A stretch of 64,000 nucleotides of DNA from Flavobacterium microcysteis (GTDB lineage Bacteria; Bacteroidota; Bacteroidia; Flavobacteriales; Flavobacteriaceae). The notes beneath the pieces are model-generated. The model saw only the letters and a program-made list of their open reading frames with translations, searched no databases and had not been told where the DNA came from. Positions 6,162-56,656 of this stretch are shown here, piece by piece. The first letter of the stretch is position 1; every line of letters starts with the position of its first letter. The DNA lies in assembly GCF_006385255.1 (NCBI RefSeq), contig NZ_VFJE01000056.1, positions 310,001-374,000 of the forward strand. Reading direction: 5' to 3'. The translations under genes and the position numbers were made by a program.

Positions 6162-7184
6162 ATGAATGCGAATCTAGATCCAACAAGCAACAATTACAAT
6201 CCGGAAGAACTTGATTTTGAGAAAAAATTAAGGCCTTTGTCCTTTGATGATTTCACGGGACAAGATCAGGTATTAGAAAATCTGAAAGTATTTGTTCAGG
6301 CTGCTAATCTTAGAAACGAAGCATTAGACCATACACTGTTCCATGGACCTCCGGGTCTTGGAAAGACTACGCTTGCTAATATTTTAGCAAACGAATTGGG
6401 AGCCGGTATCAAGATTACATCAGGCCCTGTTTTGGACAAGCCTGGAGATTTGGCGGGATTACTCACCAATCTTGAAGAGCGCGATGTGCTTTTTATTGAT
6501 GAAATCCATCGATTGAGTCCTATCGTTGAAGAATATTTATATTCGGCAATGGAAGATTTCAAGATTGATATCATGATTGAATCTGGCCCTAATGCAAGAA
6601 CCGTTCAGTTAAATCTGAATCCGTTTACGCTTGTAGGAGCTACAACACGATCGGGATTACTGACAGCGCCTATGCGTGCCCGTTTTGGTATCCAGAGCCG
6701 TTTACAATATTACACTACAGAACTTCTGACCTCAATAGTGGAACGCAGCTCAGCCATTTTAAAAATGCCAATTACGATGGAAGCGGCAATCGAAATTGCT
6801 GGACGAAGCCGTGGAACACCTAGGATTGCCAATGCCTTATTACGAAGAGTTCGTGATTTTGCACAGATTAAAGGAAATGGAAAAATTGATATAGAAATTG
6901 CAAAGTTTTCATTGAAAGCATTGCATGTCGATGCCCATGGACTGGATGAAATGGACAACAAAATCCTGACGACAATTATCGATAAGTTTAAAGGAGGCCC
7001 GGTAGGATTATCGACACTAGCCACAGCAGTTTCAGAAAGCGGTGAAACGATTGAAGAAGTCTACGAGCCGTTCTTGATCCAGGAAGGTTTTATTATTAGA
7101 ACACCTAGAGGAAGAGAAGTTACTGAAAAAGCCTATAAGCATTTAGGGAAAGTTCGAGCTAATATCCAGGGAGGGCTTTTTTAG
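6162..7184 (+). CDS. ruvB: Holliday junction branch migration DNA helicase RuvB
   Basis: RuvB is the hexameric AAA+ motor that drives branch migration with RuvA. The 340-residue length is normal. Walker A is GPPGLGKTT at residues 62-70, Walker B is LFIDEIHR at 110-117, sensor 1 is in the LVGATTRSG region, and the Arg finger region is APMRARFG. The C-terminal winged-helix domain ends in the usual NIQGG segment. The TAG stop codon shares its final G with the first unit of the word-repeat array that begins here. ruvA is encoded separately at 13.9 kb. Identification is certain. Confidence 0.99.
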
Positions 7185-7253
7185 ATTTAAGATTTTTGAT
7201 TTAGGATATTTGATTTCTGACTTCTGAAATTTAGGATTTAAGATTTTTGATTT
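7184..7253 (+). repeat. Left word-repeat array (GATTT-like), flanking the four-helix-bundle gene
   Basis: Low-complexity array of GATTT-containing words. The 19-mer GATTTAAGATTTTTGATTT occurs twice, at 7184-7202 and 7235-7253, 51 bases apart. The first copy begins on the last base of the ruvB stop codon. The words are the reverse complement of those in the array on the other side of the next gene. Confidence 0.85.
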
Positions 7254-7307
7254 GTGTTGGAGGGTGTTTGAATAGAATAAGATATAAGCCATTTAAATTA
7301 ATTATGT

Positions 7308-7670
7308 ATGACCTCGGAAGAATTAAAGGCAAGAACAAAAAAGTTCTCGTTAATGGTAATTGATATGGTAGAAAAACTGCCAAATACAATTTCAGGAAGA
7401 GCAATTGCCTATCAGGTAGTCAGAAGCGGTACTTCGGTTGGAGCGAATTATAGGGCTGTTTGTAGAGCAAGAAGTGATAGAGAATTTATTTCTAAAATGT
7501 CAATTGTTATCGAAGAAGCTGATGAAACGTTATTCTGGGTAGAAATTCTTCAAGAGAAAAAATGGATTGATTGCTCACTTCTAGACCTAATCTGGAAAGA
7601 AGGCAACGAACTAACAGCAATCTTCGTCAGCACAGCCAAATCAATAAAATCACGTCTAAACAAATCTTAA
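7308..7670 (+). CDS. Four-helix-bundle protein (S23 / intervening-sequence protein family)
   Basis: The 120-residue protein belongs to the S23/IVP four-helix-bundle family, first known from insertions in 23S rRNA genes of some bacteria and later found in many intergenic sites. Family segments visible are LMVIDMVEKLP, the loop AIAYQVVRSGTSVGANYRAV (about residues 34-53), KMSIVIEEADETLFWVEIL, and the final basic helix. It has no signal peptide. It is flanked by inverted arrays of AAATC-like words (7184-7253 and about 7690-7800) and lies between ruvB and queG. No promoter box is seen. The molecular function is unknown; association with a mobile or spreading element is inferred from the flanks. 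Confidence 0.88.
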   Translation: MTSEELKARTKKFSLMVIDMVEKLPNTISGRAIAYQVVRSGTSVGANYRAVCRARSDREFISKMSIVIEEADETLFWVEILQEKKWIDCSLLDLIWKEGNELTAIFVSTAKSIKSRLNKS

Positions 7671-7689
7671 GTCTAAAAGTGTAAAGTCG

Positions 7690-7800
7690 CAAGTCTAAAG
7701 CCTAAAGTACAAAATCCTAAAATCAAAGATCCAAAATCTTAAATCCCAAATCTAAAATCAAAGATCACAAATCATAAATCCCAAAGTCATAAATCAAAAA
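7690..7800 (+). repeat. Right word-repeat array (AAATC-like)
   Basis: About a dozen degenerate words of the form AAATC(C/T)(A/C) follow the four-helix-bundle gene and run up to the first conserved codons of queG. The stretch 7733-7745 (AAAATCTTAAATC) is the exact reverse complement of 7184-7196 in the left array, so the two arrays are inverted. There are no fixed-length repeats with unique spacers, so this is not a CRISPR. Confidence 0.85.
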
Positions 7801-7878
7801 TCCAAATACACGCAATTTATAAAATCCGAAGCCCAGCGCCTCGGATTTATTTCTTGTGGCATATCTAAAGCAGGATTT
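7756..7878 (+). other. Conserved queG N-terminal codons lacking a start codon
   Basis: Reading in the queG frame upstream of the first possible start (TTG at 7879), the codons from 7804 give [19 protein letters not shown] and then ISKAGF, which aligns with the N-terminus of QueG proteins. The frame stays open back to a TAA at 7753-7755, but there is no ATG, GTG or TTG between that stop and 7879; only ATA (7774, 7789) and ATT codons occur. The 7756-7800 part of this frame is word-repeat sequence. Confidence 0.8.
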
Positions 7879-8709
7879 TTGGAAGAAGAAGCTCCAAGAT
7901 TAGAAGCATGGTTAAAAAATAATGCCCACGGACAAATGGGCTATATGGAAAACCATTTTGACAAAAGGCTCAATCCTACACTTTTGGTTGACGATTCAAA
8001 AAGCGTCATTTCGTTATTATTGAATTATTATCCGCAAGAAACCCAAATAGCAGACAGCTATAAAATCTCAAAATATGCCTACGGACAGGATTATCATTTT
8101 GTCATAAAGGAAAAACTAAAAGAGTTGCTTTTTTCGATTCAGGAAAATATCGGCGAAGTTTCCGGACGAGCTTTTGTAGACTCGGCTCCTGTTTTAGATA
8201 AGGCTTGGGCAGCCAAAAGCGGTTTAGGCTGGATAGGGAAAAACAGTAACCTTTTGAGCAAACAGGTAGGTTCTTTTTTCTTTATTGCTGAACTGATTGT
8301 TGATTTAGAATTGGAATATGATACCGCTGTAACCGACCATTGCGGATCTTGCACCAAATGCATTGATGCTTGTCCTACTAGTGCGATTATTGCACCATAT
8401 GTAGTTGACGGAAGCAAATGTATTTCCTATTTCACCATAGAATTAAAAGACAATATTCCTCAGGAAATGAAAGGTAAATTTGATGACTGGGCTTTCGGTT
8501 GCGATGTTTGCCAGGATGTCTGTCCCTGGAACCGATTCTCCAAACCTCACAACGAACCCTTATTCAATCCGAATCCGGAATTGCTTTCCCTGACTAAAAA
8601 AGATTGGGAAGAAATCACGGAAGAAACATTTCGGGCAGTTTTTAAAAACTCAGCTGTCAAACGTGCCAAATATGATGGCTTGAAACGAAATATTGATTTC
8701 TTAAAATAA
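7879..8709 (+). CDS. queG: Epoxyqueuosine reductase QueG (start disrupted or non-canonical)
   Basis: QueG is the cobalamin and iron-sulfur enzyme that converts epoxyqueuosine to queuosine in the tRNA wobble position. The frame shows the core region [19 protein letters not shown] followed by GWIGKNS, the first [4Fe-4S] motif [12 protein letters not shown] and the second cluster motif [16 protein letters not shown] 7879 is the first usable start codon, but it would remove about 26 conserved residues encoded upstream from 7801. Either an ATA/ATT codon is used, or the N-terminus has been lost after the repeat array expanded into it. The C-terminal HEAT-like extension of some homologs is absent. 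Identity is clear; whether the protein is made full-length is not. Confidence 0.9.
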
Positions 8710-8736
8710 AAAAGCCTCATACAATGAGGCTTTTTT
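8710..8736. terminator. Bidirectional terminator between queG and the DUF885 gene
   Basis: Stem 8710-8720 pairs with 8724-8734 around a 3-base loop, with A-run on one side and T-run on the other, so it can serve both convergent genes. Confidence 0.88.
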
Positions 8737-8737
8737 A

Positions 8738-10513
8738 TTATTTCTTGCTTTGAATCCAAGCATTAATCTTGTCTTCCAATATTTTTAAAGGCAAGCAGCC
8801 CGAATCTAAAACCTGATTGTGGAACTCCTTTATAGAGAATTTAGCTCCCAATTCTTTTTCAGCTTTAGTACGAAGCTCGCGTATTTTCAATTGGCCTATT
8901 TTATACGACAAAGCCTGTCCAGGAATCGCCATATAACGTTCGATTTCTGCAACGATGCTTTCGGCTGGTTCGGCTTCGTTCTCCATAGAATATTGAATTG
9001 CCTGCTCACGTGTCCAACCTTTGGTATGCAATCCGGTATCTACTACAAGACGGATGGCACGGTGCATTTCAGCACTTAGCATTCCGAAATATTGATACGG
9101 GTCTTGGTATAGACCCAATTCTTTTCCAAGCGATTCAGTATACAGTGCCCAGCCTTCGCCATAAGCATTAAACCATATCGTTTTTCTAAATTCAGGCAGA
9201 CTCGTGTTTTCCTGCTGTAATGAAATTTGATAATGATGACCCGGAATTGCTTCGTGTAAGAACAGGTCTTCGTCAGCATAGTAGTTGTATTTCTTTACAT
9301 CTGGAATTGGTACGTAGAAAATACCGGGTCTTGTCCCGTCAACCGATCCCGGATTGTATTCAGCACTTGCAGATTTCTCACGGAAAGCTTCGGTTCTTTT
9401 GACTAGAAAAGGTGTTTTCGGCTTTAAGTCGAAAAGCTTATCCAAATTTGGTTTCATCTTTTCGTGTATGGCATTAAAGTTGTCGATTACCTGTTGTGGT
9501 TCTGTGAATGGCATTAGTTCTTTTTTGTCACGAACATAGTTGAAGAAATCTTTTAGGTTTCCTTTGAACCCAACCTGATTTTTGACCTTTTCCATTTCGG
9601 CAGATATACGTGCCACCTCACTCAAGCCTAACTTATGGATTTCATCGGCTGTAAGGTCGGTAGTCGTGTAGCGTTTGATTAAATGCTTATAGTAAGCGTC
9701 ACCTTGCGGAATGGCATTAATGCCACTTGTAGTCCTGCTTTTTGCTAAATAGTCCGTGCTCACATAATTGTATAAATTTTTGAGTGACGGTACTAATTTT
9801 TCAGTAATCAGCTTGGTATAATTGTCGGTGATTGTTTTCTTTTCATCCTCCGTAAATGTTTTTGGGAAAGCATTTAGCGGAGCATAAAATATGTGTGTTT
9901 TGTCCTCTTTGGCTAAATCTTTTAATTGAGGAATTACTTTTAAGGTCAGTGCTTTTGGCAAGACATAACCTTTAGAAACACCTTCTTTCATTTTGGCTTC
10001 GGCAGTAATAACCCAATCGTTAAAACCATTTAGTCTTTCCAGCCAATTCTTATAATCGTCTACGGTTTTAAATGGCTGCGCACTCGAACCGCTGGCATAT
10101 TGACCAATTATTAAAGGCATTCCTTCAAATTGGTTGATAGGCATCAGGTCTTTTCGGAATGTCAGAGCTTCCAGATTTGCATCGCATTCCCAAGCCAGGA
10201 TTGCTTTACTTAGCTTGTCATTTTCAGACAAAGTAGAATCGTCAAATTTTGCCAGTTCCTCTTTATATTTTGTAAAAAACACTTTTATTTTAGCGATATA
10301 GTCATCACTAAGGTCATTCGGAAGCAGATTGTTATAGCGGTTGTCGCCTGCGCTGGTCGCTTCCATAGGAAAAAGCTTCAGTCTTTCCTGATAGTAGTTT
10401 TCTAATACTGTCTTCAGTTTTTCATCCTCTTTTTTAGAAGTCTCACCTTTTTCTTTTTGGCAAGATTGGAGGCTGATATTAATGATGCATAGCAATAAAA
10501 GCAGTTTTCTCAT
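8738..10513 (-). CDS. DUF885 family lipoprotein, putative zinc metallopeptidase
   Basis: From the ATG at 10513 the product is 591 residues and begins with a short lipoprotein signal whose lipobox LQSC places the acylated cysteine at residue 18. The open frame continues 12 codons upstream, but that would bury the signal peptide, so the inner start is chosen. DUF885 proteins have a thermolysin-like zinc site: HEAIPGHHYQ is visible in the C-terminal third, followed by NAYGEGWALYTESLG with the third-ligand type glutamate. It is probably tethered to a membrane facing the periplasm or exterior. Peptide substrate is unknown. Confidence 0.9.
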   Translation of the reverse strand: MRKLLLLLCIINISLQSCQKEKGETSKKEDEKLKTVLENYYQERLKLFPMEATSAGDNRYNNLLPNDLSDDYIAKIKVFFTKYKEELAKFDDSTLSENDKLSKAILAWECDANLEALTFRKDLMPINQFEGMPLIIGQYASGSSAQPFKTVDDYKNWLERLNGFNDWVITAEAKMKEGVSKGYVLPKALTLKVIPQLKDLAKEDKTHIFYAPLNAFPKTFTEDEKKTITDNYTKLITEKLVPSLKNLYNYVSTDYLAKSRTTSGINAIPQGDAYYKHLIKRYTTTDLTADEIHKLGLSEVARISAEMEKVKNQVGFKGNLKDFFNYVRDKKELMPFTEPQQVIDNFNAIHEKMKPNLDKLFDLKPKTPFLVKRTEAFREKSASAEYNPGSVDGTRPGIFYVPIPDVKKYNYYADEDLFLHEAIPGHHYQISLQQENTSLPEFRKTIWFNAYGEGWALYTESLGKELGLYQDPYQYFGMLSAEMHRAIRLVVDTGLHTKGWTREQAIQYSMENEAEPAESIVAEIERYMAIPGQALSYKIGQLKIRELRTKAEKELGAKFSIKEFHNQVLDSGCLPLKILEDKINAWIQSKK

Positions 10514-56591: not shown

Positions 56592-56603
56592 TAAATTTAG
56601 TTT

Positions 56604-56656
56604 ATAGTGGATAGTAGATAGTTTATAAACTATCCACTATCCACTATCCACTATCA
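56604..56656 (+). repeat. Palindromic array of CTATCCA words between clpP and clpX
   Basis: Bases 56604-56647 form a 44-bp near-perfect palindrome (one mismatch per arm), built from repeated ATAGTGG on the left and CTATCCA on the right, and the CTATCCA words continue to 56656. It fills almost the whole clpP-clpX gap. Confidence 0.85.

Follow-up and report, generated by a model that had tools for sequence, protein, structure and literature searches.

The queG gene of Flavobacterium microcysteis is probably intact and translated from a near-cognate ATA codon beside an IVS-like repeat cassette

To our knowledge, few bacterial genes carry start codons that IF3 rejects. In Escherichia coli, codons discriminated against are notably AUU, AUC, AUA and CUG. 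The infC gene with an ATT start is described as autoregulating, and the sigR gene of Streptomyces as starting at GTC and being repressed by IF3 (both in PMC5472188). Among repeats located near gene starts, TAACTGA heptamers are reported to precede start codons in Beggiatoaceae, Cyanobacteria and some Bacteroidetes (PMC4679880). The 23S rRNA intervening sequences (IVS) are described as short elements with an ORF of the PF05635 four-helix-bundle family and with complementary ends able to form a long stem (PMC4990558). Here we describe a queG gene which, as judged by sequence comparison, joins the genes with non-canonical starts known from infC and sigR, together with the repeat cassette located beside it.

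Like infC, queG can be found without ATG, GTG or TTG and with a near-cognate codon at a fixed place, preceded by a pyrimidine; unlike infC, whose state was universal in the 30 loci seen, queG occurs in both states in the genus (45 of 202 loci lack a canonical start). With sigR, as described in PMC5472188, queG shares that it is a gene other than infC whose start outside ATG, GTG and TTG is conserved across species. The two differ in that sigR, according to the same source, encodes an oxidative-stress regulator with an experimentally proven GTC start, whereas queG encodes a tRNA enzyme with ATT, ATC or ATA (ATH) or CTG, as seen by comparison only. The repeats beside queG resemble those described in PMC4679880 in that heptamers are repeated in direct orientation shortly before a start codon, but TAACTGA is one fixed heptamer, whereas the queG-side units are variable, stand in inverted orientation on the two sides of a four-helix-bundle gene and enter the coding sequence. 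As for the IVS of PMC4990558, the cassette is likewise a short element with a PF05635 ORF and complementary ends with a predicted long stem, although it is placed between protein genes and ends on both sides in degenerate heptad arrays with a unit that varies by locus. Because it lies between ruvB and queG and not in 23S rRNA, we consider it IVS-like and not an IVS.

The window analysed is a stretch of 64,000 nucleotides of the F. microcysteis genome, and ruvB, the four-helix-bundle gene, queG and the queG codons described below are on its plus strand. In it, ruvB (6162–7184; TIGR00635/PRK00080), the upstream neighbour that served as start-codon control, is followed by a four-helix-bundle gene between two inverted heptad arrays and then by queG. 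QueG is the last enzyme of queuosine synthesis. Our reading of this locus, which we consider quite probable, is that queG is intact and would give a full-length QueG of 306 residues from the near-cognate ATA at 7789, in an amount probably limited by IF3, and that the array is a separate matter.

Direct reading of the queG frame gave a TAA stop at 7753–7755 and then no ATG, GTG or TTG until the TTG at 7879–7881, as an earlier sequence-only reading of this DNA had pointed out. This first canonical codon, which also appears in the ORF list, falls within the conserved N-terminus, and the mechanical ORF list places queG at 7879–8709 (276 aa). The same reading had stated that only ATA and ATT codons were available, which was mistaken: the frame contains ATC 7771 and GTC 7786 as well, in addition to ATA 7774, ATA 7789, ATA 7819, ATT 7849 and ATA 7861. 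When opened at 7756, the frame scored 342.8 bits with the TIGR00276 QueG model (cut-off 200). Its product carried the QueG_DUF1730 (PF08331) and Fer4_16 (PF13484, 4Fe-4S double cluster) domains, both above their cut-offs, and matched the solved QueG structures 5d08 and 5d6s. The proposed start is ATA 7789–7791, codon −9 in the comparison described below, with GTC 7786 as second choice; from it queG would occupy 7789–8709, with 306 codons and a TAA stop, and downstream of the start the frame is intact. A search of 6900–8800 with Rfam for known RNAs such as the cobalamin riboswitch yielded seven weak matches, none of which reached the gathering score and all of which were at 8620–8782, the end of queG.

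QueG was searched in 199 Flavobacterium genomes, 188 of which gave a match. Thirty loci from this genus search, 120 further listed matches and 80 titled loci were pooled, and the resulting 230 loci were reduced to 202 distinct ones, nearly all Flavobacterium, by removal of exact start-region repeats. Divergent queG genes are under-represented in this collection, because the 150 genus loci are the best-scoring matches listed of the 188 genomes and the titled loci are the best 80 of 563; about 38 genus genomes with weaker queG matches are outside the sample. Codons were numbered taking the Phe of xxFIKSEAKRLGF as 0. The lack of a canonical start, which characterises IF3-discriminated genes of the infC and sigR type, was found in the window and in 45 of the 202 distinct queG 5' ends, with no ATG, GTG or TTG from the in-frame stop to codon +3, these loci being related so that their counts are not independent trials. 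By genome, 32 of 150 genus genomes were in this state. A canonical codon was present within −14 to −4 in 148 loci (89 ATG, 49 TTG and 10 GTG, counting for each locus the one nearest −10) and only further upstream in nine. All nine loci titled Winogradskyella or Bizionia had a canonical start nearby. On a quick tree made with about 330 bases of queG (193 rows, nine far loci left out), the canonical and non-canonical states need 19 changes, gain and loss of the canonical start not being distinguishable. The closest relative among the matches listed, L037 (90% identity), has ATA at the codon of the window and no four-helix-bundle match upstream; it is counted outside the 45, since in-frame TTG and GTG codons precede this ATA by 9 and 13 codons.

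For ruvB from the same loci, a canonical start was found in 159 of 159 and none lacked it (186 loci had a match, and 10 late alignments, three cut loci and repeats were dropped). As 45 of 202 queG loci are set against 0 of 159 for ruvB, the lack of canonical queG starts exceeds chance. Both tgt and queA had ATG at the conserved place in 30 of 30 loci. The positive control, infC, showed no ATG, GTG or TTG between stop and start in any of 30 loci, taken from 38 genomes with a match, and the start codon was ATA in 29 and ATC in one; infC of the window's own genome starts at ATA. In the rest of the family, where 120 genomes were surveyed and 111 had a match including that of the window, one of the 110 other loci, each from a different genus, was without a canonical queG start nearby (−18 to −2); this locus, L447, has ATA at the same place. 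At the class level, with loci from 30 of 54 genomes with a match (the window's included), the 29 other queG loci all had a canonical start.

All 45 loci that lack a canonical start have ATT, ATC, ATA or CTG at −10, −9 or −8. A near-cognate codon at one place across species, as in IF3-discriminated genes, was thus found, 40 of the 45 loci having it at −9; further upstream, each codon from −20 to −11 is one of these triplets in 4 to 9 of the 45. Among these 45 loci the mean difference between loci is 0.45–0.76 for each position of codons −20 to −10, drops at codon −9 to 0.28 in position 1, 0.09 in position 2 and 0.69 in position 3, and follows a coding pattern from there. Positions 1 and 2 of codon −9 are better conserved than those of −8 and −7, as expected of a start codon. 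Codon −9 of the window is ATA 7789, and this conservation supports initiation at that codon, in agreement with the suggestion of the sequence-only reading that an unusual start codon is used. Conserved QueG residues had also been rightly recognised in frame, although their onset had been placed at about 7804; in the relatives, conservation at protein level begins at the codon matching 7789, and for this reason a start at TTG 7879 would remove 30 residues instead of the 26 or so calculated before. In 14 of the 45 loci an in-frame stop lies three codons or fewer upstream of −9, and therefore few alternatives to the −9 region exist there; an upstream start combined with read-through or a frameshift was set aside on account of these stops. 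Ile is also common at −9 in loci with a canonical codon nearby (108 of 148), so codon −9 is possibly conserved in part for the residue itself. A canonical codon that could act as an inner start is found at +11 in 27 of the 45 loci, and in the window there is none before +21.

A start somewhat further up, at GTC 7786 or at the array-made ATA 7774 or ATC 7771, would produce a slightly longer QueG. The three codons are in frame and a GTC start is described for Streptomyces sigR (PMC5472188), but the onset of conservation at −9 and the free variation of the codons further up make this alternative improbable. The exact start codon is nevertheless less sure than the site, because 17 of the 45 loci have a near-cognate codon at −10 as well, where the window has GTC 7786.

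The base context of the near-cognate codon was also compared. A pyrimidine directly precedes it in 39 of 40 queG loci and in 30 of 30 infC loci, and also precedes ATA 7789 in the window, versus 80% of tgt, 44% of queA and 57% of ruvB starts (109 sites); the binomial p of this bias, with kinship ignored, is 2.9e-10. In the 40 queG loci, A has a frequency of 0.72 at −12, 0.68 at −11 and 0.57 at −3, and the corresponding values for the 37 cassette-free loci are 0.68, 0.59 and 0.54. According to the ribosome profiling of F. johnsoniae described in PMC6847099, A at 0, −3, −6, −12 and −13 favours translation; queG agrees with it at −3 and −12, and is unremarkable at −6 (0.42) and −13 (0.17). A leaderless mRNA produced from a TAnnTTTG box at a fixed distance was considered but not supported, as the 16 occurrences of this box in the 202 loci were scattered save for six at −8, a distance from the start that is too short. 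As a separate observation, the start in the infC loci (L237–L266) always follows a pyrimidine, and the preceding triplet is mostly GCC or GTC.

The four-helix-bundle gene (7308–7670) matched TIGR02436 with 74.1 bits (cut-off 24) and PF05635, "23S rRNA-intervening sequence protein", with 43.2 bits (cut-off 33.8). The left arm of the cassette, identified by direct reading at 7184–7258, is a degenerate heptad array of the GATTTnn type, inverted relative to the right arm, in which TRF reported an array of period 14 at 7179–7216. The right arm (7695–7806; TRF rows 7695–7743, 7712–7806 and 7719–7806, the last a period-7 array) is a degenerate array of the AAATCnn type that continues into the first queG codons. 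When the right flank is reverse-complemented, it has 26 seven-base words in common with the left arm, versus three in direct orientation. RNA pairing of the two arms across the four-helix-bundle gene was predicted at −132.8 kcal/mol (z −2.46 against 20 shuffles, none of which did as well). ATA 7789 has two of its three bases inside the predicted stem, and it is possible that such a structure over the queG start affects translation.

With a profile of 33 four-helix-bundle proteins, 21 of the 202 loci were found to contain a gene of this kind at most 700 bases before queG, and the 21 proteins form two clades, A with eight loci, including that of the window, and B with 13. The queG gene lacks a canonical start in 8 of 8 loci beside clade A and in 0 of 13 beside clade B (Fisher 4.9e-6, relatedness not corrected; when cassette and start type were compared over independent pairs, the pairs were too few and the median p was 0.25). 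CTG at −9 or −10 occurs in six of the 45 loci, all six beside clade A. In nine neighbours of clade B (L027, L070, L152, L166, L196, L211, L216, L220 and L224) the heptads were read as translated into the QueG N-terminus, and the conserved QueG body from IKxEAxRLGF on persists where arrays have replaced queG 5' ends. Of the 45 loci lacking a canonical start, 37 gave no four-helix-bundle match within 700 bases upstream, and 34 of these 37 have ATH at −9. Thirty-five of the 37 are also without marked 7-base periodicity upstream, a test that degenerate arrays could escape; heptad-like repeats are present upstream of queG in L047 and L167, which have no cassette match. As read from these sequences, heptad arrays rewrite queG 5' ends in relatives, yet the near-cognate start occurs without them.

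These data bear on the second proposal of the sequence-only reading, that the array replaced the former start codon and shortened the protein, so that QueG would start at TTG 7879 or the gene would be decaying. The array does overlap the first queG codons, a part of the proposal that holds, arrays have replaced queG 5' ends in relatives, and TTG 7879 is the sole canonical start. The array was discarded as the general cause of start loss by the 37 loci without a four-helix-bundle match, and protein-level conservation, in the 45 loci, of the codons ahead of TTG 7879 speaks against truncation. In addition, the first canonical codon in some of these is at +28 (four loci), +32 (one) or +40 (seven), beyond the CGIS motif, and the remainder of queG is an intact frame, all of which leaves this explanation very little probability. 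An assembly error concealing a normal start in this genome is hardly credible: repeats are error-prone, but 44 other distinct loci are in the same state and the corresponding codon of L037 is ATA too.

In the explanation that we prefer, a start at ATA 7789, weak initiation at this codon would give full-length epoxyqueuosine reductase. Comparison supports that, in part of Flavobacterium, queG has given up ATG, GTG and TTG while keeping one of ATT, ATC, ATA and CTG at a constant site, like infC there. From the known behaviour of such codons, we infer that IF3 would reject initiation complexes formed on them, keeping the QueG level low, and that this level would rise when IF3 activity falls; control of queG by IF3, and any benefit of it, belong to the interpretation. 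The array is one arm of an IVS-like cassette, overlapping the first codons and able to change which weak start is present, and would not have caused the genus-wide loss of canonical queG starts. A wider and rather doubtful proposal is that Flavobacterium queG might be under IF3's own start-codon checkpoint, with ATH after a pyrimidine in both genes, tying wobble modification to initiation fidelity. Under the same proposal, site-specific IVS-like cassettes might rewrite the start from outside, giving ATA or CTG next to one clade and, next to the other, ATG, GTG, TTG or N-termini encoded by the array.

If IF3 control is true, queuosine modification would be linked to initiation fidelity. The predicted N-terminus of QueG is corrected by the proposed start, and the case illustrates that gene finders hide near-cognate starts by shifting them inward, as the ORF list did for queG. 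Since queG offers dozens of natural variants with many switches between canonical and near-cognate states, the use of near-cognate starts becomes testable, and the neighbouring cassettes, whose repeat arrays take the place of the initial codons of a conserved gene, amount to a natural experiment. In the open-licence literature, searched by titles and abstract starts, we found no published report of a non-canonical start in queG, nor in the open-licence literature a description of these four-helix-bundle repeat cassettes.

Some additional observations were made on the repeats. By qualitative reading of the flanks, all six PF05635 four-helix-bundle genes of this genome (L001–L006, L006 being 7308–7670) seem to be flanked by inverted heptad-like arrays, with units that differ per locus, such as TTTAGGC, GACTTTC, ACTATCC and CCTAATT. 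A lag-7 score above 0.4 in at least one flank was obtained for 7 of 29 four-helix-bundle loci of the genus, versus 5 of 29 for tgt, 3 of 28 for queA and 3 of 29 for infC, a weak separation that reflects the degeneracy of the arrays. An inverted heptad pair, GTGGATAGTAGATAGT / ACTATCC, with about 3.9 repeats and without a four-helix-bundle gene, is present at 56600–56656 of the window, in a gap between ORFs that, from their translations, we take to be ClpP-like and ClpX-like.

The gap between ruvB and queG is a hotspot in the relatives, occupied by four-helix-bundle cassettes of the two clades or by other inserts. Among the latter are a repeated palindromic element with GGATGCCGCT..ATCAGGGCTAG and, named by reading, a cytochrome P450-like gene and, in L037, a possible toxin-antitoxin pair. 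In L032 and L164 the first queG codons (…CATAAATTATACTCAGTTCAT…) are duplicated just upstream, adjoining the array, like a target duplication. The first 14 bases of queG in L037, ATAAATCATAAATC, resemble two units of the window's array, and one may speculate that the array unit was copied from a gene start. A Flavobacterium-like ruvB-queG arrangement is also present in L072 and L109, contigs titled as Klebsiella pneumoniae and Rhizobium sp. MAGs, and these bins are probably mislabelled or contaminated.

Finally, codon −3 of queG (7807–7809 in the window) encodes Tyr, His or Asn in 44 of the 45 non-canonical loci and in 145 of the 148 canonical ones, nearly always as NAY. Codons of the NAY kind are those read by queuosine tRNAs, and conservation of the residue alone may account for this pattern.
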